From Ischnura elegans (Eukaryota > Arthropoda > Insecta > Odonata > Coenagrionidae): DNA of 64,000 nucleotides. The notes below the pieces were generated by a model. The model saw nothing but the letters and a program-made list of their open reading frames with translations. It was not told where the DNA came from and ran no database searches. Shown here piece by piece: positions 436 to 64,000 of this stretch. The DNA lies in assembly GCF_921293095.1 (NCBI RefSeq), contig NC_060259.1, positions 3,286,001 through 3,350,000 of the forward strand, in the 5' to 3' direction. The stretch's first letter is position 1. Each line of letters begins with the position of its first letter. Position numbers and translations under genes: made by a program.

Positions 436-689
436 ATAATTAGAATTGCGCTTACTAATTTGCTTATTGAAAATAATTATTAAGATATTTTACAAATTTT
501 GTGCAATCAACTATAACTAAAAACAATACAGGACTCCTGTAGGATGGGAATACTAAAAAATGAGCTTGACCTATGGCAATGACGATGTCAAAGTGTGTAA
601 CTACTGTATTTGGCGAGATTTAAAGATCTAAAGGCCTTCTAAGCATCTTTTGCATTCACAATAGGGTATAACATCAACAAGTTTTCTTT
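436..689. other. AT-rich spacer
   Basis: This is an AT-rich stretch between the left inverted repeat and the mitochondrial COI insertion. I see no gene or element boundary in it. Its last bases may belong to the mitochondrial insertion, but the alignment is too poor to say. Confidence 0.5.
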
Positions 690-8896: not shown

Positions 8897-9345
8897 AACC
8901 CGTTTATGTCGCTCTCGTGGGGACGACCGATGGTCAGTCCCGCTAATGAGGGTTCAACCTCGACTCCGAGCCTAATCCGACCCTTTTCCGAGGGTCCGAG
9001 CTCGCGAGGGACGGACCCAAAACACCGGGAGGGCCCCCACCCATCTGGGCCACGTGTAGTACATTTTACATTTTACAATTCTTTTAGTGCTATCAACAAT
9101 TTATTGGCTTTATCGTCTTCTTGGTAACCCTAGAAATATGGGCGTTTTTTGATCGACTTTCTACGATGATTTTTAAGAATTTTGTCCAATTTGCGATAAA
9201 AGTCCCCTTCTGACTTGGCAACGCTGCAGCCATCAACTGTGGGCTGGGTAGTGAAGGTCCTCTCGGACCCAAAGCGCTTGACGCCCGAGAATGACAAACC
9301 CCGTTCTGACCTGGGAATTGGAAATACCATGCGAGCCACCTCTAG
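8897..9345 (-). repeat. Dispersed repeat, right copy of the inverted pair
   Basis: This is the reverse-complement partner of the repeat at 1-435. The first ~340 bases align well. The outer part (about 9240-9345) aligns with scattered mismatches and gaps. A 92-codon frame runs across it on the minus strand (9130-9408). It ends in a lysine/arginine-rich stretch that is also hinted at in the left copy, so the repeat could derive from the 3' end of a coding transposon. No family was recognised. Confidence 0.7.
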
Positions 9346-14404: not shown

Positions 14405-14712
14405 TGTAAATCGATTGATTATTAGTAGTTCGTCGGAGACGCATCAAGGGAACGGGATGATGAATTAAGTAGGCAACAGTACATTCTACGACATGCTTTA
14501 TTCACTATACCAAACCGACTGACGCCTCCTCCACGCGCGTCCCACCCGCGCAACCGTCGTCCGCCTCGTGTATGCTGACCCATCATCAGCACCTTTCCAC
14601 CCCCCACCCCTTGAGGTGAGCATTCACTCCTACCGTGGGATTGCGAGTCAGCAACAGCGAGCGACGAACGGAAGTCGACGGGAGGCGGGGAAAATGCAGA
14701 GCAGTCATTACA
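14405..14712 (-). repeat. Gypsy 3' LTR
   Basis: 308 bp, starting TG and ending CA as expected for LTRs read on either strand. It appears identical to 20334-20641. Because the element is on the minus strand this copy is the downstream (3') LTR and should carry the RNA 3' end. The 61-codon frame inside both LTRs is not considered a gene. Confidence 0.95.
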
Positions 14713-14726
14713 TTACTCCCCCCACA
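14713..14726 (-). promoter_or_regulatory. Candidate polypurine tract
   Basis: Read on the minus strand, the 14 bases before the 3' LTR are TGTGGGGGGAGTAA. A purine-rich run at this place primes plus-strand DNA synthesis in LTR retrotransposons. The call rests on position and composition. Confidence 0.65.
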
Positions 14727-14930
14727 AAGAGAAAAATTGACACACTGGAAATTTTTCTACAAATCATAAATTGCATTGAAAAGTCCAGCCAGCAAAATAA
14801 TAAAATTTCTAAATGGTAAAAAGAGATACAGTGAGTACAATCTCCACTGGCAGATAACGGAACTAAGGTTTGACACAAAATTAAAATATTGATGATACTA
14901 ATCACTTTCTTCAGGCGTATGTTTAATCAA

Positions 14931-15225
14931 CCCACGAAATCCACAGACAAAATATTAAGAGAGAAATCCCATAAACACCCATATCCAAAATTCACAAAAT
15001 TACTCCCTCATCCTTCACCACAATTTCTCCTGCAATTAAAAACAAAGGAATACCCACAAAAGACATTTATGTTACTCAACCTACGAAATCCACAGACAAA
15101 ATATTAAGAAAGAAATCCCAGAAACACCCATATCCAAAATTCACAATATTACTCTCTCATCCTTCACCACAACTTCTTCTGCAACTAAAAACAAAGGAAT
15201 ACACACAAAAGACATTTCAAATTAA
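14931..15225 (-). repeat. Tandem duplication, period 149 bp, in the Gypsy 3' untranslated region
   Basis: The sequence from about 14931 is repeated from about 15080 with a period of 149 bp and roughly 92% identity. The copies share the blocks GAAATCCACAGACAAAATAT and AACAAAGGAATAC. It lies between the pol stop (15419) and the 3' LTR. It is non-coding. Confidence 0.85.
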
Positions 15226-15418
15226 CACATTAGTTCAATGTTCTTCATGAGCTGAAATAACCGTGACAATCAATTACTTAACACCACTACCCCAACTCGA
15301 TACCCCCGTCACATGCCCACCTTAAACCATAACGCCACAGGTATGCCGTGATGGCCCCCAGCCCGCAGGCCAATAGCACAAGTAACAGCGTAAAGCACAC
15401 CATCTTCTTCTTCTCACA

Positions 15419-18400
15419 CTACTTGCGGGGGCGCAAATTATAACCCTCTTCTATGGGGAAATCGCTCCTCTCTCCCTCCTCCTCCCCCTGGTCCTCGGTC
15501 GATTCGGAGGGAGAATTCGGCGGTCCTCGGGATCTCAATGCATATGGGGATCTGGGCGGGAGGGGCGGTGGCAAGGGGAAGGGTGTGCGCTCGACGAGAG
15601 CGTCTTGTTCTTCAGGGGCGGTCACCACAAGGGGGTTTGGGAGGGCAGTGGGGCTAACTCTTCTCTCTTCTTCGCTATCAGCTGTACCGGCAGGCGACGT
15701 GCTGTCTGCGAAGCCCGGTGATGAGGGGGGGTCAGAGCGGGAGCGGGAACGGAAAGGGACGGCTGGGGTGGAGTCTCCGCCTTCGTCCGCTAAGAGTGAA
15801 GCGTTGGTGCGTCGGGGGCAAACTTCACTGTCGAAATCACTCCATTCCCCCGAGCTTTCCTCTTTATTTTCCGGCGCAATTTTCCGTGGTCTTCCCCTTT
15901 TTCTCTCCCCAGTGGGAGGGGGCGGAAGTGACAAGTGGGTGGGATGGGGCTTAACGCGATCACGGTGAACAACCACTGTGCGATGCTGCAGTTGCAATTT
16001 TAAATTAGCGGGTGGCAGAATTTCAATTACCTTATAAGGTCCTTTCCAAGGTTTGTGAAATTTCTTTACCCCCCCTCTCCTCACCGTCGGGTCACTTAGG
16101 TACACGAGGTCATTCACCTGATAATGTTTTTGCTTGGTGACCTTCGCAGACCTCGCTTGTTTCCGATGAGCCTCCCCACTATTTTTATGACACTTTTCCC
16201 ACATTGTAAGCAACCTTTCGTTTAAAGTGGCAACGTAAGTGTTGTCCAAAACAGGGTGATCCCGCACTGCACACTCAAACGGACCCCTCATTTTCCTCCC
16301 GAAAATTACCTCATATGGAGAGAACTTAATGCTAGAGTGCCAGCTACTATTATATGAACAGACAGCATAATCGACCCAGGAATCCCAATTGCTTGACTTA
16401 CAGTTCACGTAATGGGAAAGGATTTGGGCGATTGTTCGATGCACTCGTTCCACTCTCCCGTTGCATTGAGGGTGAAAAGGGGAAGTTCTCAACTTGGAAA
16501 TTTTTAAAAGTTCGGCAACCCTTTTGAATAAGTCGGAAGTAAAATTACTTCCCTGATCAGTGAGGAGTCTACCTGGCACACCAAATTTAAGAATCCAATC
16601 CCTCACTAGAGCCACTGCCACCGTTTCAGCCATCTGATCCCGCAAGGGTATCATTACAAGGTATCGCGAAAAATGGTCGATTATCGATAAAACATACTTA
16701 TTTCCTAAATCAGTCCGCGGCAAGGGCCCAACGATATCCAGCGCAATAAATTCAAATGGCCCATCAGCCATGGGCAGAGGGTGTAAAGGGGCTTTGCCTC
16801 TACCATACGGGCTCCTTTGCTGACACATCACGCAACCCTTAACGTACCCCTCGCAAGCCTTTTTCCAACCGGGCCACCAGTACTGATCTCCTACGCGTGC
16901 GCTCGTTGCCTTAAATCCCAAATGACCTGACATCGGATGGTCATGATTCTGTTTAAGAATTTGTACCCGCACCTCTCTCGGAACAACTATTTTGCACTCT
17001 CCTCGAACAATTTTACAAAGTAGGCCCTCACGTATCTCAAACCCTGGTTCACTCATCAGCCTAGAACACTCTTCATCCTTTGCCTGCGCGGCTCTCAAGT
17101 CAGGTTCTTCTAAAATCTCTACCCTTCTTACCTTCCTACTCAGAGCGTCTGCGTTCGAGTGCAACTTCCCTGGCTTGTATTCCACTGTATAGTCATACTC
17201 GGATAGCTTCAAGGTCCACCGCATAAGGCGTCCATTGGGGTCCTTTAGCCCAAACAACCATTTTAAGGCCGCGTGGTCCGTAATAATTTTGAATTTTCGA
17301 CCAAATATATAACACCGGAAGTGGGTCACAGCCCAGACCACAGATAGCAACTCCTTTTCGGTAGTGGAATAATTAATTTCGGCTGCGTGTAGCTGCCGGG
17401 ATGCGTACGCGACAGGCCTCTCAACGCCTCCAATTGCCTGCGATAACACCGCCCCGATTACAAAGTTGGAGGCGTCTGTCGAAATGATAAAAGGTTCATC
17501 AAAATTTGGATAAGCCAACACAGGGCTCGTGGTCAGGGCCTTCGTTAGCGCTCTCATCGCCTCATCGCATTCCGGCGTCCACACGAAAGCAACCCCCTTT
17601 TTCATCATACGCGTCAGCGGGCGCGCGATGACTGCATAATCGTTGACAAACCGCCGATAATAATTGGCCAAGCCAAGGAAGGATTGCATTTCCTTAACGC
17701 AAGTGGGAGTCGGGAAATTAATTACGGTTTCGATCTTGCTTGGATCAGGCTTCACACCCTCCTTACCAATAACGTGCCCCAGGTATTTGACTTCCTCTAA
17801 AGCGAAATTGCACTTTTCTAATTTCAAGGATAGTTTGGCCTTCCTCAATCTCGAAAATACCTCTCTTAACCGAGAAACGAGTTCCTCCATGTTCGTCCCA
17901 AAGATGATGACGTCATCTAAATACACAAGGCAAAGCGATGGCTTCAATCCACGCAACACACAGTCCATCAATCTTTGGAACGAACTAGGGGCATTCCTAA
18001 GCCCGAATGGCATCCTAGTGTATTCATAATGGCCGTTGTGTGTGTTAAATGCTGTCTTTTCTTGTGACTCCGGATGGATTGGAATCTGATAGTAGCCCGA
18101 AGTAAGATCTAATGTCGAAAAATATCTGCAATTGCCTAAATAGTCTAAGGTTTCGGTAATGTTGGGGAGCGGGTAAACATCGGGCGTTGTTACCGCATTA
18201 AGGGCCCTGAAATCTACACAGAACCGAAATTTAGGGGCCCCGTCGGCAGATTTTTTTGGGACAATTACCACAGGAGAGGCCCATGGGCTTTCACTTGGTA
18301 CTATCACCCCCGCCTTCAATTGATCCTCAATGAATTTCTCAACTAAAGGCTTTTGATGATGTGGCAAACGATAGGGGCGCCGATAAATTGGGGCAGCGTT

Positions 18401-18775
18401 TCCCGTCGGTATTTGGTGGGAAATAATATCCGTCGCCGGCGGTAGGTCAGTTTCGCAAAAAATTCCCTCGAACTCTCGCAATAAAGCAAGTAATTCCTCC
18501 CTCTCCCGACCCTTCAAATGGCTCAGCTTATTCTCGAAGTCTACCCTTTTGACGCCTTCAACGGTTCTCACTAGAACGGCCTCGTCATCGGCAACTTCCT
18601 GTATTTCTACTCTATCCACCCTATATAGTGTAGCCACCTTGGTCCCCTTTGTCAAAGTAAGCGCCCCTTCGCCGAAATTTGCCACTTGCAAAAATGTTTC
18701 CCCCTCCGCAGAAATCTTTCCAAGACTACGGGCGGTGGCACAATTTTCTATCTCTAGGTCCCCGGTTTCTGTCAT
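15419..18775 (-). CDS. Gypsy pol: reverse transcriptase, RNase H, integrase
   Basis: This 1118-residue frame encodes the replication enzymes. The reverse transcriptase spans about residues 150-330 with its catalytic aspartates in TLDLTSGYYQ (D223) and VYLDDV (D287, D288). RNase H spans about 430-545 (STDAS, TEKEL, ITDHAAL). Integrase starts with a zinc-binding HHCC module (H613/H618, C648/C651). It has the D,D(35)E triad at D680, D740 and E776, and is followed by a GPY-type chromatin or DNA-binding module near 910. A long acidic, proline-rich tail carries an AT-hook-like KRGRPRK near 959-965. The start codon overlaps the protease stop as ATGA (18775-18772), so pol is probably made by reinitiation or frameshifting. 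No inactivating change is visible. Confidence 0.95.
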   Translation of the reverse strand: MTETGDLEIENCATARSLGKISAEGETFLQVANFGEGALTLTKGTKVATLYRVDRVEIQEVADDEAVLVRTVEGVKRVDFENKLSHLKGREREELLALLREFEGIFCETDLPPATDIISHQIPTGNAAPIYRRPYRLPHHQKPLVEKFIEDQLKAGVIVPSESPWASPVVIVPKKSADGAPKFRFCVDFRALNAVTTPDVYPLPNITETLDYLGNCRYFSTLDLTSGYYQIPIHPESQEKTAFNTHNGHYEYTRMPFGLRNAPSSFQRLMDCVLRGLKPSLCLVYLDDVIIFGTNMEELVSRLREVFSRLRKAKLSLKLEKCNFALEEVKYLGHVIGKEGVKPDPSKIETVINFPTPTCVKEMQSFLGLANYYRRFVNDYAVIARPLTRMMKKGVAFVWTPECDEAMRALTKALTTSPVLAYPNFDEPFIISTDASNFVIGAVLSQAIGGVERPVAYASRQLHAAEINYSTTEKELLSVVWAVTHFRCYIFGRKFKIITDHAALKWLFGLKDPNGRLMRWTLKLSEYDYTVEYKPGKLHSNADALSRKVRRVEILEEPDLRAAQAKDEECSRLMSEPGFEIREGLLCKIVRGECKIVVPREVRVQILKQNHDHPMSGHLGFKATSARVGDQYWWPGWKKACEGYVKGCVMCQQRSPYGRGKAPLHPLPMADGPFEFIALDIVGPLPRTDLGNKYVLSIIDHFSRYLVMIPLRDQMAETVAVALVRDWILKFGVPGRLLTDQGSNFTSDLFKRVAELLKISKLRTSPFHPQCNGRVERVHRTIAQILSHYVNCKSSNWDSWVDYAVCSYNSSWHSSIKFSPYEVIFGRKMRGPFECAVRDHPVLDNTYVATLNERLLTMWEKCHKNSGEAHRKQARSAKVTKQKHYQVNDLVYLSDPTVRRGGVKKFHKPWKGPYKVIEILPPANLKLQLQHRTVVVHRDRVKPHPTHLSLPPPPTGERKRGRPRKIAPENKEESSGEWSDFDSEVCPRRTNASLLADEGGDSTPAVPFRSRSRSDPPSSPGFADSTSPAGTADSEEERRVSPTALPNPLVVTAPEEQDALVERTPFPLPPPLPPRSPYALRSRGPPNSPSESTEDQGEEEGERSDFPIEEGYNLRPRK

Positions 18776-19521
18776 AAAGACATTCCGCCCTCCTTGACCC
18801 CTTCATCCTTCACCCTTATCCTCAACAACCTTTCGCACTTCGCGGGTATTACCTCGGATTGAGCTAACATCACTGGGATCTCTTCTACTGTGTCACGTGG
18901 CCTCTCTCTCGCTCGTGGAACTCTCTCCCAAGACCTTTTTTGTCGCACATCACAACCCATCAAAGGAATTTGACGCTCACCCAAACTCAACGTCTTTCTT
19001 ACAACATCTACAACACCGTGGAATTTACGTAAAAAGTCTAACCATATTATACCCTGATATCCCCCAACCGAGTCCACCACCTGCATATTAGCAACATAAC
19101 AATCACCATTAAAATTAAAATGTATCGTCTTTTCCCCATAATTCCACACCTGTCTTCCCGTGATTCCCTTTATCCTACACGAGGGTTTCCTCAAGCCACT
19201 CAATCCGCACACATCGCGAGAAATAAGGGAAATTTGGGCCCCCGTGTCTATCAATATCCTCGAGGGAACCCCACACACCGTCACTTCCGCCACTAAGTCT
19301 TCCATTCCCGCCGCCGCCGAAGCGATTCGGGGAAGGGTCTTACTCACAGGGATCCACCGGGGACGGCGCCGCCAGATCCTCGGTCGTTTAAAGGCCCTCT
19401 GCGGCGGTGGCTCTCCCTTCCGCAGTCCCTGGCTAGATGGTTGGCGCCCCCGCACGCGTAGCAGCGGCGACCGCTCTCGCACTCGCGCGCGAAATGGCCG
19501 GGCCGCCCGCAGTTGAAGCAA
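18772..19521 (-). CDS. Gypsy protease frame
   Basis: This 249-codon frame overlaps the end of gag by 178 bases in a different frame and runs to the ATGA junction with pol. Residues 90-101 contain the retropepsin active site [11 protein letters not shown] (D92). Downstream is a beta-rich stretch with a GIIWLDFL segment in the place of the second conserved protease motif. The N-terminal 60 residues are arginine-rich and probably represent sequence read only after a ribosomal frameshift from gag, so the methionine at 19521 is not necessarily used. The protease would cleave the Gag and Pol polyproteins. Confidence 0.9.
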
Positions 19522-20258
19522 GCGGCATCTCGCGGCGCCCGGAATACTCTCCTAGCCGGTGATGGCGGCCGCGGTGTCCTCTCCACCTCGCGAATCCGGA
19601 CAGCAGTCTCCACGGCAGCGTCCAAGGTCTCAGGCATGGCCAATCGACTTAGCCTCCCTAACTCCCCTGGAAGTCCCCTAAGGAACGCGTCCAGTCCTCT
19701 CTGGTCGGCCTCGTAGCGCATAGCTTCTCTCCGACTGGCGTCCCCCGTCGCATCGTACGTACGCGCATTAGCAACGCGTACCCGGTCGGCAAAGGCTTCT
19801 ATGTCTTCATTATGCCCCATGCTGATCGTGGACAAGAGCTCCCGGTAGAAACGAGCGGTACGTTTCAATTTGTACCTCCCCACCAGGTGCTCCTTCAAGG
19901 CAACAAACGTGTCTGCATCGCGGCACTCCTCCTTCGCCCGGCAGAACTCCGCTGCGTCTCCCGTCAGCCGAATCTTTGCCGCCTTGAGCGTCTCCTCCTC
20001 CGTCCACGCACTGAGATCGGCCACCTGCTCGAGGCGGTCGAAAAAGGCTTCCACGCATTCTCCAGGTCGCCCCGAGAAAGCGTCAACCGTGGAGAGGAGC
20101 GCGAAACTTCGTCTCGGAGACGACGCACCGTCATCCTCTGACAGTCTTTTCTTTAGCTTCGCGTTTTCCTCCGACAGGAGCCCCAGCCTTTCGCCAAACT
20201 CGTCGATCACCTGCTGCAGCTCTACCTCTCGGCCTCCCACACTCACGCGGCCCGCCAT
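19344..20258 (-). CDS. Gypsy gag (nucleocapsid with two zinc knuckles)
   Basis: This 304-residue protein starts at the first ATG after the primer site. Residues 30-45 look coiled-coil-like. A retrotransposon Gag capsid-type region spans about 55-225. Two CCHC knuckles follow at residues 247-260 and 266-279 with the exact C-x2-C-x4-H-x4-C spacing, which bind genomic RNA. The C-terminus is rich in arginine and glycine. Codon use is strikingly GC-rich compared with the surrounding genome. Its end overlaps the protease frame, the usual arrangement for frameshift expression. Confidence 0.93.
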
Positions 20259-20315
20259 GTCGTAACCTTTAATTCACCACCCGCGATATTGGTGCTCTCC
20301 GATCAATCGATATCA

Positions 20316-20333
20316 TCCCACTTCTGACACCAA
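20316..20333 (-). promoter_or_regulatory. Gypsy primer-binding site
   Basis: On the minus strand, one base after the 5' LTR, the sequence TGGTGTCAGAAGTGGGA is complementary to a tRNA 3' end finishing in CCA. The match looks like a leucine tRNA acceptor end from memory, but I could not compare it with a tRNA set. Confidence 0.75.
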
Positions 20334-20641
20334 TGTAAATCGATTGATTATTAGTAGTTCGTCGGAGACGCATCAAGGGAACGGGATGATGAATTAAGTA
20401 GGCAACAGTACATTCTACGACATGCTTTATTCACTATACCAAACCGACTGACGCCTCCTCCACGCGCGTCCCACCCGCGCAACCGTCGTCCGCCTCGTGT
20501 ATGCTGACCCATCATCAGCACCTTTCCACCCCCCACCCCTTGAGGTGAGCATTCACTCCTACCGTGGGATTGCGAGTCAGCAACAGCGAGCGACGAACGG
20601 AAGTCGACGGGAGGCGGGGAAAATGCAGAGCAGTCATTACA
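20334..20641 (-). repeat. Gypsy 5' LTR
   Basis: 308 bp, apparently identical to 14405-14712. On the minus strand it precedes the primer site and gag, and should contain the element's promoter. No TATA box was evident. Confidence 0.95.
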
Positions 20642-38213: not shown

Positions 38214-38283
38214 GCTTTCGCGGCTCATGATGATTAAAAATAAGTCACATACGGGTGTATGCCGCGTGTCATGATGGAGATAG

Positions 38284-38325
38284 CCCCGACGTCTCGCGAC
38301 CGACTGCTGGTCACTTTTTCAAGGG
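38284..38325 (-). ncRNA. Degenerate hammerhead-like motif, left Penelope end
   Basis: On the minus strand a CCC arm, an 8-nt box TTGAAAAA, a GTGACC/GGTCGC stem-loop, then GAGACGTC and GGGG stand in hammerhead order. Compared with the right copy, the core GAAAC has become GAGAC and the stem has one changed pair, so this copy is unlikely to cleave. Penelope-like elements are known to carry hammerhead ribozymes in their terminal repeats. Confidence 0.4.
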
Positions 38326-38357
38326 AATAGTGTTAGGATTGGGTTTTTGCTGCCTTT

Positions 38358-39924
38358 TTATATTTCAGGTGGGAGGGGTGGGCGGAGGGTGTGGGGAGTT
38401 AGGACTGGAGGGGGAAGATAACGAAATGTGTGGATGACTGGGTTCCAAGTATTGCTGATTCTTAATCCGGTATCTCTATTGTAGTTGTTCTTGTTTTTCT
38501 TTATTTCTATGGTCTCGCGGATGAGTCTGGTTTTAAAATGTTTTATCCTCGCGATGACTCTTGATTTTTCGAAGTCGATCGCATGTCTGGTGCCTTCGTG
38601 CTCCGCTACGGCTGACTTTGAAGGGTAACCCAGTCGAATGGCCCGCTTGTGTTCTTCTATCCGAGTTTTGACTGTTCGTCCGGTTTCCCCGATGTATTTC
38701 TTCTCACACGATCGGCAGGGGATTTCGTATACCCCTTCAATTTGAAGTGGCGTCCTATCCTTGGCATTTCCGAGGAGGTGTCTTACTTGGGCGTGTGGTT
38801 TAAAAATGGCTTTAATGTCAAATTTCCGGAGGATGTTACCGATCTTATCCGTCGTTCCTTTCACGTAGGGGAGGAAGGCTTTCTTTTGGCTAATGATGTC
38901 TTCTGCGTCTTGGGAATTGTTCCTGTTGTCCTTGTTGATAATCTTTCTAAAATTTCGGGATATAGCTCCGTTGTCGTAACCATTAAGACGTAGTATGGAT
39001 TTCAGCTTAATAATTTCTGAAGATAGATTCTTTGGGTCACTCAGCCGGATCGAGCGTTCAATTAGAGAGGTCATCACAGCGTTTAATTGAGCAGGGTGGT
39101 GATGAGAACTGGCATGGAGATACCGATTTGTTGATGTCGGTTTTCCATACACGGCGTGGCCTAGGCTTCCGTTGTCATTCTTCTTCACCAAGACGTCGAG
39201 AAATGGCAGTTTTCCGGATTTTCTATCTCCATAGTGAATTTAATGTTGCTGTTAAGGGTATTTAAATATTCAAAAAATTGTTCTAACTTCTGTCGACCAT
39301 GCGTCCAAATGATGGAAGTGTCGTCTATATACCGTAACCAAATTTTGGGTTTATGCGTTGCATTTTCGATTGCCACTGTTTCTAAGTGTTCCATGTAAAT
39401 ATTCGCCACTGCTGGAGAGATGGGAGATCCCATCGCCGCCCCTGAAACTTGTTCGTAGAAATTATTTTGCCATCGGAAGAAAGTGCTGTGCAGGCAAATA
39501 GATGTCAGAGAAGCGATGTCCTTGTCGAACCTTTCTTCTATTAGTTGGACCGCCTCTTCCCCCGGTATATTTCTAATTTCTGCTTCCTCTACTTTAGGTT
39601 GCGTAATTTTTTCTCAAAATATTTGGCCAGCTTGTACGGTGGGGCGTCTATGGCGCTAACGATGGGTCTAAGTGGTATATCTTCCTTATGTATTTTGGGT
39701 AATCCATAAATACAAGGAGTTTTTGGGTCTTGTGGTATCAGCTTCTTTCTGACTTCTGTATCCCCTATATGTTTCTTAATGGCTTCAGTGGTTATCCTCT
39801 TGAAGCGAGACGTTGGGTTGCGTTCTAATTTTTGGTATGGGCCATCTCTTATGACCTCTTCCATCTTCTTAATGTAGTCCTCTTTCTTTAATAATACCAT
39901 CGCATTCCCCTTATCCTTCTGCAA
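38358..39924 (-). pseudogene. Penelope-like reverse transcriptase and GIY-YIG endonuclease, left copy
   Basis: Read on the minus strand it starts with the RT N-terminal motif QKDKGNAMVLL (near 39922). It continues through YGLPKIHKEDIPLRPIVS, GSPISPAVANIYME and the catalytic WLRYIDDTSI (near 39340), and ends with a GIY-YIG nuclease (39191-38358). In the nuclease GVYEIPC and YIGETGR lie at residues 153-172 of the last frame. A deletion of roughly 115 bp near 39575-39590 removes the segment with the first RT aspartate, which is still visible in part in the right copy. A frameshift near 39195 separates RT from nuclease. It is not functional as it stands. Confidence 0.88.
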
Positions 39925-39935
39925 CCTAGAGTAGA

Positions 39936-41262
39936 GGAAGCCAAATCGTACGTAAAGAACTCACTGCATTTCCTGCAAATAATAAAGGACGTACGAGTGA
40001 ACCCGGAGGACATTCTCGTCAGTTTTAGACGTGACGTCACTTTTCACGAATATACCGGGGGAAGAGGCGGTCCAACTAATAGAAGAAAGGTTCGACAAGG
40101 ACATCGCTTCTCTGACATCTATTTGCCTGCACAGCACTTTCTTCCGATGGCAAAATAATTTCTACGAACAAGTTTCAGGGGCGGCGATGGGATCTCCCAT
40201 CTCTCCAGCAGTGGCGAATATTTACATGGAACACTTAGAAACAGTGGCAATCGAAAATGCAACGCATAAACCCAAAATTTGGTTACGGTATATAGACGAC
40301 ACTTCCATCATTTGGACGCATGGTCGACAGAAGTTAGAACAATTTTTTGAATATTTAAATACCCTTAACAGCAACATTAAATTCACTATGGAGATAGAAA
40401 ATCCGGAAAACTGCCATTTCTCGACGTCTTGGTGAAGAAGAATGACAACGGAAGCCTAGGCCACGCCGTGTATGGAAAACCGACATCAACAAATCGGTAT
40501 CTCCATGCCAGTTCTCATCACCACCCTGCTCAATTAAACGCTGTGATGACCTCTCTAATTGAACGCTCGATCCGGCTGAGTGACCCAAAGAATCTATCTT
40601 CAGAAATTATTAAGCTGAAATCCATACTACGTCTTAATGGTTACGACAACGGAGCTATATCCCGAAATTTTAGAAAGATTATCAACAAGGACAACAGGAA
40701 CAATTCCCAAGACGCAGAAGACATCATTAGCCAAAAGAAAGCCTTCCTCCCCTACGTGAAAGGAACGACGGATAAGATCGGTAACATCCTCCGGAAATTT
40801 GACATTAAAGCCATTTTTAAACCACACGCCCAAGTAAGACACCTCCTCGGAAATGCCAAGGATAGGACGCCACTTCAAATTGAAGGGGTATACGAAATCC
40901 CCTGCCGATCGTGTGAGAAGAAATACATCGGGGAAACCGGACGAACAGTCAAAACTCGGATAGAAGAACACAAGCGGGCCATTCGACTGGGTTACCCTTC
41001 AAAGTCAGCCGTAGCGGAGCACGAAGGCACCAGACATGCGATCGACTTCGAAAAATCAAGAGTCATCGCGAGGATAAAACATTTTAAAACCAGACTCATC
41101 CGCGAGACCATAGAAATAAAGAAAAACAAGAACAACTACAATAGAGATACCGGATTAAGAATCAGCAATACTTGGAACCCAGTCATCCACACATTTCGTT
41201 ATCTTTCCCCTCCAGTCCTAACTCCCCACACCCTCCGCCCACCCCTCCCACCTGAAATATAA
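39936..41262 (+). pseudogene. Penelope-like reverse transcriptase and GIY-YIG endonuclease, right copy
   Basis: The frame begins inside RT (KNSLHFLQIIKDVRVNPED near 39960). A 2-base insertion near 40027 disrupts the usual 'SFDVTSLFTNIP' motif, and the frame then continues through GSPISPAVANIYME and RYIDD (near 40290). The shared frameshift near 40420-40430 leads into the 277-codon frame with the Penelope-type GIY-YIG endonuclease (40429-41262). The N-terminal part of RT is missing because the copy is truncated at the junction with the left copy. It is inactive through these breaks. Confidence 0.88.
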
Positions 41263-41294
41263 AAAGGCAGCAAAAACCCAATCCTAACACTATT

Positions 41295-41336
41295 CCCTTG
41301 AAAAAGTGACCAGCAGTCGGTCACGAAACGTCGGGG
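41295..41336 (+). ncRNA. Hammerhead-like motif, right Penelope end
   Basis: The order is CCC, TTGAAAAA, a perfect 6-bp stem GTGACC/GGTCAC with a 6-nt loop, then GAAACGTC and GGGG, where the outer CCC and GGG can pair. This is the layout of the minimal type I hammerheads reported from Penelope-like elements. The first box should read CTGANGA and is clearly diverged, so activity is doubtful. A covariance-model search would settle it. Confidence 0.45.
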
Positions 41337-41390
41337 CTATCTCCATCACGACACGCGGCATACACCCGTTTGTGACTTATTTTTAATCAT

Positions 41391-53632: not shown

Positions 53633-56360
53633 GGAGGGGAAGAAAGCCAGCAAGGGGTAGCATTAGTATTAAACGGGAAGATGGGTAAGCGTGTGGTAGG
53701 TATAGACCAGGTAAACGATAGGATTCTGGTGGTAGAAATTGAGGCGCAGCCCGCCAACCTTGTGGTGGTCCAAGTTTACATGCCCACTAGCAATCATAGG
53801 GAGGAAGAAGTAGATGAGGTGTATGAACAGCTCGAGGAAATAATTAGAGACACACCGGGTAAGAAAAATCTGGTAGTGATGGGGGACTGGAACGCTTCAG
53901 TCGGGGAAGGTAGGGATGGAAACGAAATAGGAGAATTTGGATTAGGAATTCGAAACGACAGGGGCGAGAAAGTAGCAGAATTTTGCAAGAGAAACAAGTT
54001 ATTCATCACAAACACGTGGTTCAAACATCATAAAGGGCGAAGGTACACGTGGAAAAGTCCAGGGGATGAAGGCAGATATCAAATAGACTACATTATGGTA
54101 AACCAGAGGTTTAGGAATAGTGTGAAAAACTCGCGCAGCTTCCCAGCAGCAGATGCGGATTCAGACCACAATTTAGTACTTATGAAATGCAATGTAAGAT
54201 TCAAAAGGCTCATGAAAGGCAGGAGGGTGAGGAAATGGAATGTAGAAGCACTGAAGGGGAGTATGAGGAGAGAATATCGGGAACTAGTGGACATCAATGT
54301 ATGGGAGATTGAAGGTACGAAGTCTGTTGAGGAAAGATGGGATAATATTAAAACTGGAATAGCTAATGCGGCGGAGAAATAAATTGGCTACGTTGACAGC
54401 AGAAGGATAGAGAAGCCTTGGGTTACGGAGGCGATGGTAAAAGAGATGGAGGAGAGAAGGAAGTGGAAGAGCGTGGACACAGAGGAGGGAAAAAGAATGT
54501 ATAGAGAGCTAAATAATCGATTACGTCGTGAAACTAAGAGGGCAAGGGAGGCTTGGTGAAAAGTAGTGTGAGGAAATGGAAAAGTTCCAGAAGGTTGGAG
54601 AAGTAGGCACGTTGTACGCCAAAGTTAAGTCGCTATCATGCGGCAAAAGAGGACAAGCCATGTTTAAAATTAAGGCTAAAGATGGGAGAGTGCTAACCGA
54701 GCGAGAAGAGGTACTGAGTAGATGGAAGGAATACGTGGAGGATCTGTATGATGGAAGAAACAGGCCGGAGAGATTGAGTTTAGAGGATGAAAGTGCAGTG
54801 GAGGAGGACATTCTTGGGCCGGGGATATTAGATTCGGAAATAGAGAGAGCACTTCGTGATATGAAGGCTAGGAAAGCAGTAGGAGTTGACAATATCCCGT
54901 GTGAGCTTCTGAAGAATCTAGGGAAGGATAGTAAGAAAAGGTTTTTCGAACTAGTTCGCAGCATCTATGAGGGGGGGTGTTGGCCGGATTATTTCGTGAA
55001 GACGGTTTTAATTCCGCTTCCGAAAAAGAAGAAAGCTGTGGAATGCGGAGATTATAGAACTATCAGCCTAATATCGCATGCGGCGAAGGTGGTACTGAGA
55101 ATATTGAACAGGCTAATGGAGGCAAGGGCAAACGAGTATTTGGGCGAAGATCAATTTGGTTTCAGAAAAGGGATATCAACTCGTGATGCAATAGCAGTAA
55201 TGAGGTCCCTCGTCGAGAGGAACCTAGAATATGACCAGGACGTATATGCCTGTTTCGTGGACTTTGAGAAAGCATTTGATAGGGTGAACTGGGTTTAGCT
55301 GATGGATATTCTCAAGAGAATAGGTGTAGATTGGAGGGATAGATGACTGATTCGTAATCTTTATATGGCCCAGACTGCGCAAGTGAGGGTAGCGGGCGAG
55401 AGATCTGGGTGGGCAGGCATTGGCCGAGGTGTAAGGCAAGGCTGTCCTCTATCGCCGCTGCTTTTTAACGTATACGCTGAGGAGATGGTTAGAGAAGCGT
55501 GGGACGAGTTGGAAGCTGGAGTGAAAGTGGGAGGAATGATGTTGAAATCGGTAAGGTTCGCGGATGATCAGGCGCTGATTAGGCAGTCAGTGAGGGGATT
55601 ACAGGCTCTAGTGGATGCGTTATACGAGCGTTGCGAGGAGTATGGGATGAGGATTAATCACAAGAAGACTAAGGTAATGCGGTTTTGTAAAGTATCGCGA
55701 GCGAGGAATGTGAGACTCAAGATCAAAGTAGGTGGGGAAAAACTTGAACAGGTAGAGCAGTTTAACTATTTGGGCAGCACATTAGAGGAAAACGGACACA
55801 GTAGCAAAGACATCAGGAAGCGAATTGCACTAGCAAAGGAGGCGTTCATGAACAGGAAGGAGCTTCTTAGAGGATCGTTATGTAAGAGTTTAAAGAAAAG
55901 GTTAGTGAAGAGTTTGATTTGGAGTGTAGCTCTCTATGGTGCCGAAACATGGACACTGAGGAAAGAAGATGAGAGAAGATTGGAGGCATTCAGGCATTCA
56001 AGATGTGGGTATGGAGAAGAATGGAGAGGGTAAAATGGACTGAGAGGAAAAGGAACGACGAAGTGCTGGATATGGTGGGTGAGGAGAGGCAGCTTTTGGA
56101 TGAGATACGGAGGAGACAGAAGGTATGGATGGAGGGAGTACTCAGCGGGGAGGGGATGTTGAAAAAGTTGTTAGAGGGTAGAATGTTAGGGAAACGAGGG
56201 AGGGGAAGGAAAAGAGTAGGATTTTTGGATAGATTGAAGGGGAGTAGGCCTTATAGTGAATTGAAGAAGGCGGTAATGGAAGGAAAGGAAGGCTCCCAGA
56301 TCACTTCTTTAGTACTCCATGCAAACCTACCTTAATCGGTAGAATACTTTAATAATAATA

Positions 56361-56372: not shown

Positions 56373-58106
56373 AAACCAAGGGCAATAACCCACACTTAGG
56401 ACTCGCGACACAACATTGGTTAGGCACAGGCCGCAACATTACATTCCGTTGTGCTGACATGATCAATCTGCTAGTGGTTCATCAAATAAGTAGATATCTT
56501 TGTCTTTTCCACACACTATATGGTAAACCTCTCTCTCATTATATTGTTATATTTGCTAACAGTGTTACCAAACCTGTTAGCTGACCATTTCCTGAGCTTC
56601 TGTGCAGGGATTACTAGATTGCAGGGATTAGGGATGGCTAAACCCAGATGGCACTCACTCGTGGAATCCATGATAAAGAAAGAGAAGAAACCTTTGCAAA
56701 ATTTAAGAATGGAATAGACATGCATAATTAATTATTGATTCCATTTGAGAATTTCTTCATGATTAATGCTGCCAATCTAATTTGAACTCCTTTATTATTC
56801 AATTTTACCGAAGTCAAACAAAGATATAATGCACATTTTCACAAAGGAATGTTCCTTTAAAATAAACATTTTTTAATTCTGATTTTATATGCACAGGCAA
56901 GGCTTAAAATATGCATAGTTTTTGTTTCATAAAAGATTATATCAACTCCTTGACTTTAGCAGATTCACTCTTATGACTGAACTTCAAGCAAGAAGGTGAC
57001 TGTCACTGTTGCATAGTTTTAATGACAGAGATAATATCTTCGCAATCAAGTGGACTCTATTGTGGAGGCCTTTGAAAATGTGAAAAAAAGCGATAAGCTA
57101 ATTTTCTGCTTTTCATTTGGAGCATACTTCATTTGCTCATCAAATTGGCCAATAGCAGCTCTGACTTATATTAACTGTGGCATTTTGATGTGTGGCTTTG
57201 CCATGGTTTCGTGTTCACCTTTGTAAATCCCCAAAAAGAGGTTCTTTTAGTGAAAGTCACAGAGTTACTTTTCGTACGCAGTAAAAATGTGACCTAAAGT
57301 GTTATTGTTGTGTCTAAAGGCTTGTTATGAGCTATTCAAGTGCCAGAGCATCCTTCCTCACAATGCATTCACCTATTACAAATCATGAAGCATATAGATA
57401 TTGTTTAGGTGATTTCCTTAAGCTTTGAAAATCTTGACAGTACGTGTTCATATATTTAGAAAATATGAATGCTTAAGTGTTCTATTTTAGGCTATTTCTG
57501 GAAAAAAATCTGGAAGTTCAATTTGAATACTATGTGCACCCGGGAGGAATACGATTGAAATGCAGTGTATTCAACAAAGTGTATTATAAATACTAGTGAT
57601 GGGTCGGTTCGATTCCTCGATTCTTCGATTCTCAGCCAAGAACCGGAATCGAAAATGAGTACTTGCCAAGGGGAAAAATCGATTCCGATTCCAGTAGTAC
57701 GAGTACTTCAAACCACAAATTTATATACGACCGCGTTTCCAACAGTCATTGGAATTTTCGTGCCGCGTAATCGTAATAACAAAGCACATTATCTTCTAGG
57801 GATGTGCGAGTACTTGAAAGTTCGAGTCGAGTCGGTGGTACTCGACTCGAGTGTTTCGAGTAGCATTACAAATGTCTAGTCGAGTAAGTTACGGTTACGG
57901 AGCTTTCGAGGCTAGTGGGTCCAGCAATCTGCCGACAGGAAGCGCTATCATGAAACTCATGTAGTAATACAGTTTTTAAAGCTGATAAGCCATTCTAATG
58001 CCTTGGCCTGGTAGTTTCAGCTTGCTGTTTGCTCTATAGTTGTCGAAGTGGGCGCCGAATACCTTTACGCCAGCCGCGGCGGCCGATCGTCTTCCGACCC
58101 GGCGCA
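56373..58106. other. Spacer, with hAT-like end motifs near 57.6-57.9 kb
   Basis: Mostly AT-rich with no recognised exon. Around 57595-57900 there are two phrases typical of hAT-type non-autonomous ends, AGTGATGGGTCGGTTCGATTC-like at 57596 and AGGGATGTGCGAGTACT-like at 57799. They come with many short TCGAGT and TCGATTC repeats. I could not pair them into delimited elements. Confidence 0.45.
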
Positions 58107-58111
58107 CACCG
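58107..58111. repeat. Transib target duplication CACCG, left
   Basis: CACCG directly precedes the terminal CACAGTG and is repeated at 61194-61198. Transib elements make 5-bp GC-rich duplications. Confidence 0.92.
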
Positions 58112-58150
58112 CACAGTGGTCTGAAAGGCCGGCCTGGCTGGACAAAAGTC
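58112..58150 (+). repeat. Transib left terminal inverted repeat, 23-RSS-like
   Basis: CACAGTG equals the consensus RSS heptamer. The 23-bp spacer is GC-rich. ACAAAAGTC matches the RSS nonamer consensus ACAAAAACC at seven of nine positions, including the run of four A. Confidence 0.93.
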
Positions 58151-58620
58151 TGTCGGGCGCATATATTGCACGCATAAGTGGCAAATGTTTTTGAAATACC
58201 TTCAATATCGATAACTTTACCTTATTAAATGGTTAAAATAATTTTCTCTTGACCTGAGGCAAAAATAGGGGGTTTGGGAATCCCCCGGTTTTCACTATAT
58301 TGCCTGAAAATTAATTATTAGCTGAAATTATTATCACTCTGTGCGAATTAATGTTTAAGCTGTCAAACATTTTATCATCTTTCATTTGCAATAGCTTAAA
58401 ATTTTCTGCGTCCTTGAATAAGAGATAACGGCAATGGCTATTAGCCCCATCATATTTAATGAGAGGTTCTTACCAGGTTTAATTTAGTGGGGCAGTTTCT
58501 AAATGACCTGTGACTTTAAAATTACTCTAGTATCTCCTTTTTGAATGACAAATTTTGATTTCAAAATTTACAATGGAAATAGCAATGTAACAATGTGTTT
58601 CACAATACTTAAATGTTTAT

Positions 58621-58835
58621 ACAATTTACAGAAAATAATCACTTTTAGACATTTTAATAAGGCGAAATTTACTCTTGTTAATCCTACCAGAACATTGCAC
58701 CTAATACAAGAAATTAATGGGCATAAACCAATCACTTTGCAACATTTAAATAATTTAAATTTTACAATTTACAGAAAATAATCACTTTTAGACATTTCAA
58801 TTAGGCGAAATTCACTCCTGTTAATCCTACTTAGT
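58621..58835. repeat. Tandem duplication, period 143 bp, inside Transib
   Basis: The block ACAATTTACAGAAAATAATC at 58621 recurs at 58764 and the similarity continues through TAATCCTAC for about 70 bp. The right copy runs into the transposase stop region. It is probably a local duplication after insertion. Confidence 0.75.
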
Positions 58836-60002
58836 CAGAAACAAAACCATCCGAGTCACTTAAGCCATAATTTTCATCTATTGATGGCAATAGAACATTC
58901 ATAACTTCGGGTGGGTAAGGGGAATTCTTCACTTTTTTCAATTTTCTTTTGGAAGATATTAAAGGGTCTGATGATACCAGAAGAATGTTGAAGAGGTCTT
59001 CATTTACCGTAGCAGTAGAGATTTTCCTCGTGTTGCTTTCCCTGTAGCGCCTTATATCCTTATTTCGGGACTCCTTTGGCTCTTCGGACAAAACACCAAT
59101 TGGTAAGGGAGCCGTACGAATGATATCACTTCCATTAATTAGCATTTTATGCACATATGCTGGCATATAATACCATCCGTATAGCTCCACGCACAACCTT
59201 GTCGTCTCCAAAGCATATTGCTTAAAAACTTCCACATCAATTGCGCGTTTTGACGCCACTGTTTTCAACACGATAGGTACCTAATCTTTGTATTCGTTCC
59301 TTGCTGATTCCAGTGACTTCTGAAGACAAATCTGGTTGGGCGAAAAATCTCCTCGCTGCATTGCCATCATTCGTGGAGCCAGTTCCCTGCTTCGTAATGT
59401 CCACAATCAACCCCGTTTCCACTCTAAATCTGTCCTGGACACACTTTTTTCATGCTGAAAGAATGGATTCATTTTCGGCGATTTTAATTTGCCATTTTTT
59501 AATGTCAACTCTATGCGAAATGTGAAGCATATACTCAAAAATCCTTAACCAGGCGTGAAGAGGTGAATGGCCAAACTCGAATACATCTGAGTTTACGGGT
59601 CGTAATAATAATTGTTTTATATCATTCATTTGGCAAGGAGTAGCTTTGCAGACATTGCAAGTCTGGGAAGAAATACCAGTCATAGAACTGACGGCTTTAC
59701 CGTCGACCATCGACAAAACCAAATGATGATCAACTGCAACATCAAACCAAATGGACGGCCTCAATTTATTTATCTCTTCGTCCATGTATGCCTTTTCCTC
59801 AACGATAAAATTACAAGTTTCCTTTTTAAAAGACAACTTGATCGGTCGGCAATATCTTGGCGAAGATGGCCGTGGATTCTTCCATACGGTCAAGTCACTC
59901 GATGGTATATACAGACGCAATGGCACAATTGCGATACAAAATAAATCACTAGCCATGAATTCTTTGTGGGCTGAGTCGGTTAAGGAGTGGGTGAAGAAAT
60001 AA
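58831..60002 (-). pseudogene. Transib (RAG1-like) transposase, broken
   Basis: On the minus strand the reading order is VPLRLYIPSSDLTVWKNPRP (near 59910), VDGKAVSSMTG, the zinc-type CNVCKATPCQMN (near 59640), SPLHAWLRIFE and GSTNDGNAARRFF (near 59350). It ends with WYYMPAYVHK and LSEEPKESRNKDIRRYRE (near 59060). These line up in order with RAG1: the CxxC zinc motif, the 'NGNFARK' segment and the last catalytic-glutamate region ('SEGNESGNK' in RAG1). The candidate catalytic Glu is thus retained. A TGA near 59447 and a frameshift near 59272 break the gene, and the part carrying the first catalytic Asp was not found in frame upstream of 60002. Confidence 0.85.
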
Positions 60003-61154
60003 TTTGACCATTTGCTTTGGGGAAGGGGAACTTAAGGAGAGGAGAGTGAGTGAGTGACAAATAGTAGTTCATTCATAAGCATATTTGTATCACTTTGCAC
60101 AGCTTCAAATTGCTGTAAAAATATCTAGCCTTTTGCCCTTATTTTCAAGGTGTAGAATTTCAGGTTGGGAATATTGTAGGGAATCAATTTTTTCTGAATT
60201 TATGATATCTTTTACTGGCATACTTGATTTCTCCTTTGTCAATCCTGCTTTACTTTGACGAAGGATCGTTTTCCTGCCCCCATTGCACTGAGGTCGGATT
60301 TTCAGTTGCACGGGTGTCAAGGTTACGGTTCCCAGTCACGTCTAGTAAGAACAAACCATTCTCACAATTTGGCTATTTCCGTTTTCCTATGGTGTTACGG
60401 GTAGTGTCCACAACACCCAATACCTCATTCCAGCTAGGAAAACAACTAATGTAATCAATCAAAAATAAATTAACAATTATTTATAATTTTATTACACAAT
60501 GCAATTTTTTATAATAAAGTAAATATAAAAATAAGTTTAGATAAACAAATTACACATGAAGTCGTTCCCAAGAATATTTTAGTGCTGATGATTTTTCCAA
60601 TTTCGCGCGTATCTCACTAGCGCCACTCTGCGGTAAGCTGAAAAGCACCGCTCGAAGATTCGTATGTCACTGTAGAAAATACATTATAATTCTAAAAGGC
60701 GCAACTAGGCGCAGCCAATTTTTGCTCAGCATGTTTTATAAGACTATTGCCTACAATAATCCGTTAAAATTATACCGGGGCCTTCAGGGCTTCTTTTAAA
60801 TTCTAACACAAAGTACGTTTATAACAATTTTGGTCAGATTGTTTTCAACAGATTGATTCTTCAGAATAACAATAAGTTTTGTCCAAACTATGAATTCAAT
60901 ATAAAGATAAGTCTATTTACTTCCACTTTACATTAAAATATTCCATCATTATGGTTTTAGAACCACTGATACTGATGCCTAAAAGTCAGTGACCGGTACA
61001 GTAAAATCATGACAAGTCCCGAATCGAAGTTTCTAGCCATTACAGTGGATTGCATTTGAAAGAAATCCGCAAAAACAGCATACTATCTTAAACTACAACT
61101 CATTACCTATTCAATAAGCACATTTCCACGTTATTTATCCAAACTCAAATATTT
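60003..61154. other. Transib interior, N-terminal or untranslated part
   Basis: This should hold the 5' part of the transposase. A 71-codon basic frame at 60105-60320 on the minus strand may be a remnant, but it has no recognised motif. An acceptor-like CCCTTCCCCAAAG (minus strand, near 60010) could mark an intron ahead of the recognisable transposase. Confidence 0.45.
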
Positions 61155-61193
61155 GACTTTTGTCCAGCCAGATCGGCCGTTCCGACCACTGTG
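61155..61193 (-). repeat. Transib right terminal inverted repeat, 23-RSS-like
   Basis: Same heptamer, same 23-bp spacer length and same nonamer as the left end, in inverted orientation. Both ends are therefore of the 23 type and not a 12/23 pair. Confidence 0.93.
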
Positions 61194-61198
61194 CACCG
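61194..61198. repeat. Transib target duplication CACCG, right
   Basis: Partner of 58107-58111. Confidence 0.92.
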
Positions 61199-62487
61199 GT
61201 CCGAAATCGGAAAAAGCTGGAATGAAGTCCAAAATCACCTTTTTGGGGATAGAGACTTGAAACTTAGCGTAAATACTCATAAATCATTACCAGATATAGA
61301 TTTATATGCCATTTTACATAAATACGACCCTTTAGTGATGATACAGTGGCCCAAACATGACCAACTTTTCAAAACCACGCGCGATCTCGTAAATCCTCGA
61401 AATTTTTTAAATTTATCCAGGTGGTGTTGCGTTGGTATGATTTTAATGGAAAAAAAATGCAATATTATTTTCACCTGGTGCTTTGCCTATACTTCAAATG
61501 ACTTATGAAGATTTTGGCTTTCATCTGTCTGGTTTTACAATGCAAAATGGTCGACCCGTTTTTCACTTGAAATTTGACATAAAGTAGACATTATCTTTCG
61601 TTTAAGAAAAATATAACTCGGAAAATTTGAACCACAATATAAAGTAGAGATTTCTAAAGAGTACTAAGTAGAAATCTTGGGAAAAAAAACGTTCGCGACG
61701 AAGGAAATAAGAGCGATTTTTCAATCGCGCGTCAAGACTGGGCTTCTCATCGCGGAACTCTGGGGCTCGGTAACTGAGGCCGATTTTTCAAGTTTTTTAA
61801 AACTTTAGTCTTGAAAATCGTCATTTAAATCACGGGTAATCGTCTTCTTCGACTTAAAACAGAGGGTGTTAGAAAGTGTTATGTATAGATAGACTTGACC
61901 ATTTAACGCATTACTCGAGTGAAAATATACTAAGGATTGGATATTTTTCGGAACCATCCCACGCATAAGAAATATGGCTCGGGTATTGAAGTAAAGTGAA
62001 GAGATTAAGTCGGCATACTTAAGAGAGAGGAAAATAAACTGTTTCCTCGAAAGTCAACAACCGATACCCTTTTTCCCTTTCCACCTTCGCCGAGGTGAGT
62101 CGCGCGGAAAGGGGAGTTTTCACACCACAAGGCATCTTTTAGTCTTTTGTATTACTACGTCCGTCCGATGTGATATTCATTTGTAGCGTTTAGTTTCTTT
62201 CTTGAACTTAAAAAACAAGAGTTTTTAAGGTTGATTAAACGACGTGAGAAATATAGATTTTTTTGGCTCTACAAAACTAAAGCTAAGTTCTTTAGTCCAT
62301 TAGCTTAGTCATTTGAGTTCCATGAGGACTCAAGATCCATAAAGATCGATGATATAGTTTTCAATAAAAATTCCAGTTTCCTAAATCTTGCAATTTTGGT
62401 AGGAAAGTACTTGCCCAGTCACACAAGTGTGTAGCAAAAGGCAATTTTCTGCAGACAGTAATACTGTAACATGGAGACATCAAAACC
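61199..62487. other. Spacer and possible LINE 5' region
   Basis: AT-rich. A 105-codon plus frame starting inside the Transib end (61191-61508) has no recognised similarity. The 5' boundary of the LINE that follows could lie anywhere in the right part of this stretch. The more balanced composition at 62040-62110 is one candidate. Confidence 0.45.
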
Positions 62488-62579: not shown

Positions 62580-63488
62580 ATGGCGGCCGGTCAAGTAAAC
62601 ATTGAATGTCACGCTTGTAAAAACCATTTAAAGGATTGTGAAAAAGCCCTTCCTTGTGAAAATTGCAAGCAATTTTATCATTATAAGTGTACGGGCCTGA
62701 AAGAAATTGCTTTGAGAGCTCTGGAGGAAATTTCCGGATTATTCTGGAAATGTCTTTCATGTCGCGTTATAGAAGGAAACCGACTTAGCAAGATGGCGTG
62801 CGACATCGAATTATTAAAAGAAGAGATTAACAATCTAAAGGATAACCCTAAGTTTCACGCGGGGAATGAAAATCGTGTGAAAAAGTTAAGTTTTGCTAAA
62901 GTGGCAAATCACGTAACAGAGGCCTCACATGACGTAGCTAAGCCGGCAAAACATCGTCAAAGAGATGGAAAAGAGGCTGAGTTTGGAGCAAACACTGTTT
63001 CTGACTCAAAACCTTCGGCAAAAAAGGAAAAAACGACCCATGTTGATCAAACCAGCTGCGGAATAGTGCGCCTAAACCATGAACAATCACGAAGAGAATC
63101 AGACGACGACGGCTATACCCGAGTGCAACACAGAAGAAAGAAACGAAACTTCTTTGGTATTGGAAAAGGTGCGACTGAAAACAACGGTGCAGGTCTCCGA
63201 GCTGCGAAAATGATAACGTACGTATATGTGGGCCGCTTGGCCAGCGATTCCACTGAAGATGAAGTGGTAAAATATGTAAAAAATAAGTTTGACGTCACGT
63301 GTGATTCTTGTGAAAAAATAGAAGGTAAAAGTGTACATGGTGCATTCAAACTCGGCGTTGAATACAGTGATTTTAAACAGGTGATTAATCCGCTTCACTG
63401 GCCTTCTGGCGTGATTATCAACAAATTTACAAGACCAAGACAACAGTCGACTGACATGAGAGTCGAACCTAAGGGTAAGTCTTCCTGA
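62580..63488 (+). CDS. LINE ORF1 protein with PHD-type zinc finger and RRM-like domain
   Basis: 302 residues, starting at ATG 62580, which lies just after the tRNA-like sequence. Residues about 10-65 form a PHD/RING-like cysteine-histidine cluster (CHAC, CENC, HYKC, KCLSC). Residues about 65-90 are predicted helical. The middle is charged and low in complexity. Residues about 210-295 (YVYVGRLASDSTEDEVVKYV, then HGAFKLGVEYSDFKQVINPL and HWPSGVIINKF) match the RRM-like nucleic-acid-binding fold seen in ORF1 of CR1-group LINEs. The protein probably coats the element's RNA. No frame damage is visible. Confidence 0.82.
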   Translation: MAAGQVNIECHACKNHLKDCEKALPCENCKQFYHYKCTGLKEIALRALEEISGLFWKCLSCRVIEGNRLSKMACDIELLKEEINNLKDNPKFHAGNENRVKKLSFAKVANHVTEASHDVAKPAKHRQRDGKEAEFGANTVSDSKPSAKKEKTTHVDQTSCGIVRLNHEQSRRESDDDGYTRVQHRRKKRNFFGIGKGATENNGAGLRAAKMITYVYVGRLASDSTEDEVVKYVKNKFDVTCDSCEKIEGKSVHGAFKLGVEYSDFKQVINPLHWPSGVIINKFTRPRQQSTDMRVEPKGKSS

Positions 63489-64000
63489 CTAGCTTTCTGT
63501 GACTCAAATCAGCAAAAGACGCACTCAGGGTTTAAATTACTGGTTTTAAACATTCAGTGCCTGAGTAACAAAATAGCAGAGCTTGAAGCACTAGCAGAGG
63601 CAGAGAAACCAGAATTTATATGTTTAAGTGAACATTGGATGAGAGATATAATTATATCAATACCAGGCTATGTGATTGGTGACTTTTATTGTCGGAAAGA
63701 TCATCGTAATGGAGGTGTGGTTATTTTTGTAAAAAGTACATTAGTTTTTTCTAATATGTCGCATTTGGTGCATAATCTAAATGCTGAACTTATATTTGAA
63801 TGTGCAGCAGTGAGGTACACTGTAGCAAGTAATGATTTTATTGTATTATCTGTATATAGATCCCCTGTTAGTAGCTTTAATAGTTTCCTAGAAATTTTAG
63901 ATAATCTGTTGTACACCTTGACAAGTCAATTGTCAAGACCAAATGTTATATTGGCAGGAGACTTCAACTGTAACCTTTTTAAGGACGGACAAGATAAAAG
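63489..64000 (+). CDS. LINE ORF2, endonuclease domain (partial)
   Basis: After the ORF1 stop an open frame reads LLVLNIQCLSNKIAELEAL (near 63538), then FICLSEHWM, NGGVVIFVK, VLSVYRSP and VILAGDFNCN near 63952. It stops only at the window edge. This is the exonuclease-endonuclease-phosphatase-type nuclease that nicks target DNA for reverse transcription. The start codon is not evident in the first 140 bases, so translation may depend on reinitiation, or the start is non-standard. The reverse transcriptase lies beyond the window. Confidence 0.85.

Follow-up and report, generated by a model that had tools for sequence, protein, structure and literature searches.

Transib families with symmetric RSS-like ends, along with a terminal consensus, were reportedly described by Kapitonov and Jurka in 2005. 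In the excerpts of the literature cited here, Transib ends are termed RSS-like, the heptamer especially (PMC11217092), and Transib termini are compared with RSS in a figure (PMC2686171). The legend to Fig. 2 of PMC8355894 describes symmetric 20-22 bp spacers with heptamer- and nonamer-like motifs at Transib ends, as well as a few families that are 12/23 asymmetric, some of them with motifs equal to the canonical RSS. Similarly, excerpts of PMC6941560 state that in some Transibs the heptamer and nonamer are the same as the ones RAG recognizes, with various spacer lengths, and describe hairpin-forming, RAG-like cleavage for Hztransib; excerpts of PMC8289069 attribute to most families, for example Hztransib, symmetric ends with a clear heptamer but little or no nonamer similarity. 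Transib comprises two subgroups; Subgroup II, to which most of the earlier sequences belong, includes symmetric as well as asymmetric ends, and members of either subgroup are reported to possess an equivalent nonamer-binding domain (PMC9435367, excerpt). The usual duplication length for Transib, RAG and RAGL elements is 5 bp (PMC7204232, excerpt). No report of Transib in ticks was found in the open-licence literature.

Within the window (the whole 64-kb stretch of DNA analyzed here), a 3,082-bp element at 58112-61193 is bounded by inverted terminal repeats, and it is almost certainly a dead copy of a Transib-superfamily cut-and-paste DNA transposon residing in a eukaryotic, repeat-rich genome. 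Transib transposons are found in animals and are related to the enzyme by which antibody genes are put together; the Transib and the retroelements around it suggest an animal host, probably an arthropod. Three traits by which the superfamily is recognized were found together, namely transposase homology to the Transib/RAG1 core, CAC-starting RSS-like terminal repeats and a 5-bp duplication. The first-pass annotation had already named a Transib transposon at these coordinates; the coordinates and the end letters agree with the sequence, and the identification is upheld by three colinear transposase pieces, inverted repeats matching at 35/39 positions, the CACAGTG heptamer and the duplication. 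The ends and their target site are as follows:

58107-58111, plus strand, left target-site duplication CACCG, read directly from the sequence
58112-58150, plus strand, left terminal inverted repeat: heptamer CACAGTG (58112-58118), 23-bp spacer (58119-58141), nonamer-like ACAAAAGTC (58142-58150)
61155-61193, minus strand, right terminal inverted repeat: heptamer CACAGTG, 23-bp spacer, nonamer-like ACAAAAGTC
61194-61198, plus strand, right target-site duplication CACCG, read directly from the sequence

The two CACCG copies outside the ends are perfect, as originally noted, and an exact 5-bp match at fixed places is expected 1 time in 1024 (arithmetic, equal bases). No second copy of the element was found in the 64-kb window by blastn (E up to 1) or by tblastn of 12 relatives (E up to 0.01). 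Searches of viral_contigs with the middle ORF, the exact end pattern, alignment A2 or P0005 returned no relative, the collection being viral and absence from it little informative; the same holds for the prokaryotic collection genome_contigs, searched with A2 and the exact end pattern.

The coding capacity of the element is confined to fragments of a transposase on the minus strand:

59450-59956, minus strand, transposase piece aligned to residues 128-284 of 6pqn_A (E 9.5e-36), ending at the in-frame TGA 59450-59452
59237-59422, minus strand, transposase middle piece aligned to residues 306-350 of 6pqn_A (E 1.2e-10)
58831-59271, minus strand, transposase C-terminal piece aligned to residues 353-480 of 6pqn_A (E 6.8e-32)

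These three pieces occupy two frames and are colinear with the solved Transib transposase chain 6pqn_A from residue 128 to 480. We take 6pqn, listed in the PDB as a (putative) DNA-mediated transposase, to be HzTransib; D225 and E436 fall at chain positions 208 and 419, a constant offset of 17 by hand count, in agreement with that identity. These are the catalytic residues quoted for Hztransib (PMC6941560, excerpt). By hand count on the alignment, the equivalent of the second catalytic Asp lies at codon 59702-59704, in piece 59450-59956, and that of the catalytic Glu at codon 59071-59073, in the C-terminal piece. The Pfam RAG1 family matches the C-terminal piece at E 0.0026, under its cut-off, and for the remaining two pieces Pfam gives nothing at E up to 1. 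Relatives matching the same transposase number 12 proteins for the middle ORF, the closest being P0005 (74% identical over 35% of the query), and four for the C-terminal ORF, the closest being P0013 (79% identical over 99% of the query). P0005 and P0013 each come from a contig of 1,369 bases, which may be one and the same contig.

This copy is inactivated and cannot make a working transposase, because it combines the in-frame TGA at 59450-59452 with a change of frame and the lack of a detectable first-Asp block. The middle piece shares the frame of 59450-59956, past the in-frame stop of the latter, and the coding frame shifts between the middle and C-terminal pieces. The first catalytic Asp block, which reads KWGCDGSS in relatives, was undetected in six frames by a profile built from the N-terminal blocks of nine related proteins (best E 0.16). 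Any present-day movement would need transposase from another copy.

Relaxed tblastn settings also returned two stray matches to the first-Asp region and a weak one in place. The match of P0007 (DGANSHCRY, E 0.016, element positions 254-340, minus strand) lies beyond the C-terminus and reached only E 0.16 (sequence) and 0.5 (best domain) with the profile, and that of P0009 (E 0.008, element positions 443-661, plus strand) is out of place and was not listed by the profile; both are attributed to chance. A third match, from P0002, is in place at element positions 2178-2237, with a weak E of 0.27 and no support from the profile.

Compared with each other, the two ends are identical at 35/39 positions, and all of the mismatches (positions 11, 15, 21 and 22) fall in the spacer, where 19/23 bases agree. 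The heptamer, the spacer length and the nonamer-like ACAAAAGTC are the same at both ends in inverted orientation, and, as the first-pass annotation had observed, identity halts just after the nonamer: position 39 is the last shared one, position 40 differs, and the eight 10-base blocks beyond (41 to 120) are each identical at 1-4/10 positions. Confinement of all four mismatches to the 23-bp spacer is not significant (P = 0.11), and therefore a modular heptamer and nonamer is not established. The identical blocks (1-10, 12-14, 16-20 and 23-39) extend past the modules themselves, taking in three spacer bases beside the heptamer and eight beside the nonamer.

At each end we reproduced the counts previously given for the resemblance to the jawed-vertebrate 23-RSS: the heptamer matches at 7/7 positions, the spacer is 23 bp, and ACAAAAGTC matches the vertebrate RSS nonamer ACAAAAACC at 7/9, departing at two of the last three positions. 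Among the 60 spacer lengths tried (0-59), 23 gives the best nonamer match at both ends. A nonamer match of 7/9 or better has a probability of about 0.002 at the fixed 23-bp spacer and of about 0.008-0.009 when spacers of 12, 22, 23 and 24 are all permitted, and the nonamer resemblance thus exceeds chance at the fixed spacer. Because both ends belong to a single transposon, they are not independent and amount to one observation, and the feature was chosen after the fact, which inflates the significance. When the heptamer and ACAAAAGTC are both required exactly, 21-25 bp apart, the window yields two sites and 100 shuffles yield none (mean 0.00). With three mismatches allowed at the fixed 23-bp spacer only the same two sites are found; shuffles average 0.66 sites and 16/100 reach two, and the loose pattern alone is not distinctive. 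When at least 6/7 heptamer positions (CAC fixed) and at least 6/9 nonamer positions are required with a spacer of 12 or 23, four sites are found in 64 kb, with the element ends as the top two and one of the others inside the element at 60495 (spacer 23, 6/7 and 6/9).

On the pattern of sequence identity, the inner block at positions 23-39, which contains or equals the nonamer-like motif, is most likely a second transposase-binding site, a reading drawn from the two ends of one copy. Counting against this role, Transib need not use a nonamer, since most families, Hztransib included, have little or no nonamer similarity according to excerpts of PMC8289069. Instead, the likeness to the nonamer may be due to an A-rich run that arose by chance within the inner binding block and has no relation to the RSS nonamer, and we regard this as a distinct possibility that falls somewhat short of being probable. 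The departures from ACAAAAACC at two of the last three motif positions, the post hoc selection of the feature and the 20-22 bp spacers of symmetric Transib ends in print (PMC8355894, Fig. 2 legend) are all consistent with a chance run, whereas the probabilities obtained at the fixed spacer (about 0.002) and with four spacers permitted (0.008-0.009) argue against one.

A further explanation, possible but unlikely, is that the family keeps a functional symmetric 23-RSS, with selection acting on heptamer and nonamer as two modules held exactly 23 bp apart, in the manner of V(D)J signals. Such selection would fit the 7/7 heptamer, the 7/9 nonamer whose match peaks, at either end, at 23 bp among the 60 spacers (P about 0.002) and the location of 4/4 end-to-end mismatches inside the spacer; however, that location by itself carries P = 0.11, the spacer bases adjoining both motifs (eight beside the nonamer, three beside the heptamer) are identical too, and the observations come from a single copy whose ends are not independent. 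The first-pass annotation proposed that the family preserves a symmetric 23/23 version of the RSS; the symmetric 23/23 layout does stand in this element, but the claim about the family rests on two ends of one dead copy and a spacer concentration of P = 0.11. In a stronger form of this idea, a living Transib lineage would keep heptamer-23-nonamer at both ends, near enough to the vertebrate 23-RSS to be perhaps cleavable by RAG1/RAG2, and the ancestral signal would have been symmetric 23/23 with the 12-bp form arising later, a scenario we consider quite improbable. The suggestion that the family is useful for understanding the origin of the 12/23 rule is unproven: symmetric ends are usual in Transib families (most of them, in the excerpts of PMC8289069) and already in print, and so say little on the matter; the element is not evidence on how the rule arose. 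If copies of the family kept the nonamer-like block at an unvarying distance of 23 bp, the family would offer a convenient natural substrate for asking whether RAG and Transib transposases read a symmetric 23/23 arrangement. That the element is a RAG-like transposon with RAG1L and RAG2L instead of a Transib is scarcely credible: the terminal CAC, the 5-bp duplication and the RAG1-like C-terminal piece would suit it, but the top match of that piece is a Transib chain (E 6.8e-32) against E 0.2 or worse for RAG1 chains, and a Pfam scan (E up to 1) of the nine ORFs of at least 60 aa within the element turned up no linked RAG2-like gene.

Returning to the inner block as a probable second binding site, a RAG1-like DDE transposase, acting in trans or made by this copy before its decay, would have recognized both symmetric 39-bp ends, with the heptamer at positions 1-7 serving as the cleavage signal. 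By extrapolation from Hztransib and RAG, the transposase would have made a precise cut at the CAC of both heptamers and joined the ends in a staggered fashion to a CACCG target, leaving these 5 bp duplicated on either side.

Inside the element, downstream of the transposase, lies a direct repeat:

58617-58687, plus strand, first copy of a 71-bp direct repeat
58760-58830, plus strand, second copy, 93% identical to the first

None of the five tandem-repeat rows of the window falls in the element. The flanks at 58063-58099 (minus strand) and 61198-61229 (plus strand), read outward, bear a weak likeness to the element ends (GGTCsGAA ... GCTGG ... AAG), which was first spotted by eye and then scored. 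The best flank-versus-end scores are 25 and 17, values equalled by 0.3% and 15% of 100-bp stretches of the window. Against the two ends, the left flank gives shuffle P values of 0.0145 and 0.048 and the right flank 0.11 and 0.14, the latter unremarkable alone, and, with flank lengths of 50, 60 and 100 bp, the joint flank score is attained at 0.08%, 0.2% and 0.6% of positions in the window. The joined insertion site shows no excess of palindromic structure over background, of which 25% attains the best score of the site. The flank likeness could reflect insertion into decayed, end-to-end Transib ends or could be chance in GC-rich DNA.

The remainder of the window contains additional repeats, and no Rfam match at gathering scores was found in it. 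An element at 14405-20641, assigned to the Gypsy type by eye, has Pfam matches to reverse transcriptase, RNase H and integrase in 15419-18775 (minus strand) and a zinc-knuckle ORF at 19344-20258 (minus strand); it is probably recent, since its 308-bp direct repeats (14405-14712 and 20334-20641) are 100% identical. A 1,342-bp inverted duplication with 99.6% identity (38230-39571 and 40049-41390) has a reverse-transcriptase match in ORF 40031-40435 of one arm and may have arisen recently as a head-to-head pair or be an artefact of assembly; its ORFs are presumably Penelope-like. LINE-type fragments occupy 53681-56033, where Pfam places endonuclease and reverse transcriptase in three ORFs, and 62580-64000, where 62580-63488 was called a LINE ORF1 by eye from its own sequence and what follows it, with no Pfam match at E 0.001. 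Additionally, 57-431 and 8890-9265 form an inverted repeat of about 377 bp with 90% identity.

Taken together, these data describe a single dead Transib copy whose limits are well defined and whose RSS resemblance is unusually good. It shares the CAC terminus and the 5-bp duplications with ProtoRAG and the rest of the RAGL transposons (PMC7204232, excerpt), but RAGL elements carry RAG2L, and in ProtoRAG the ends are asymmetric (27/31 bp) and their inner motif is another one (PMC8289069, excerpt). The jawed-vertebrate 23-RSS has in common with the element the heptamer (7/7), the 23-bp spacer and most of the nonamer (7/9); unlike the vertebrate signals, the element has ends of equal spacer that flank a transposon and form no 12/23 pair, and 19/23 of their spacer bases agree. 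Hztransib, from Helicoverpa zea, resembles the element in its colinear transposase homology (6pqn residues 128 to 480), a 5-bp duplication and a similar size (3518 bp in the excerpted PMC1852546, against 3,082 bp), although the element is broken, has no detectable first-Asp block, and matches the nonamer at 7/9 where Hztransib ends have little or no similarity (PMC8289069, excerpt). Much like the symmetric RSS-like Transib families, the element carries heptamer-like and nonamer-like motifs at symmetric ends, its 23-bp spacer standing against 20-22 bp in the Fig. 2 legend of PMC8355894, a count that may depend on where the motifs are placed. Symmetric RSS-like Transib ends were thus already known, and the element adds to them one copy whose nonamer is unusually good and perhaps functional; on the published statements excerpted here, an exact heptamer with a 7/9 nonamer at 23 bp lies at the good end of the known Transib range.
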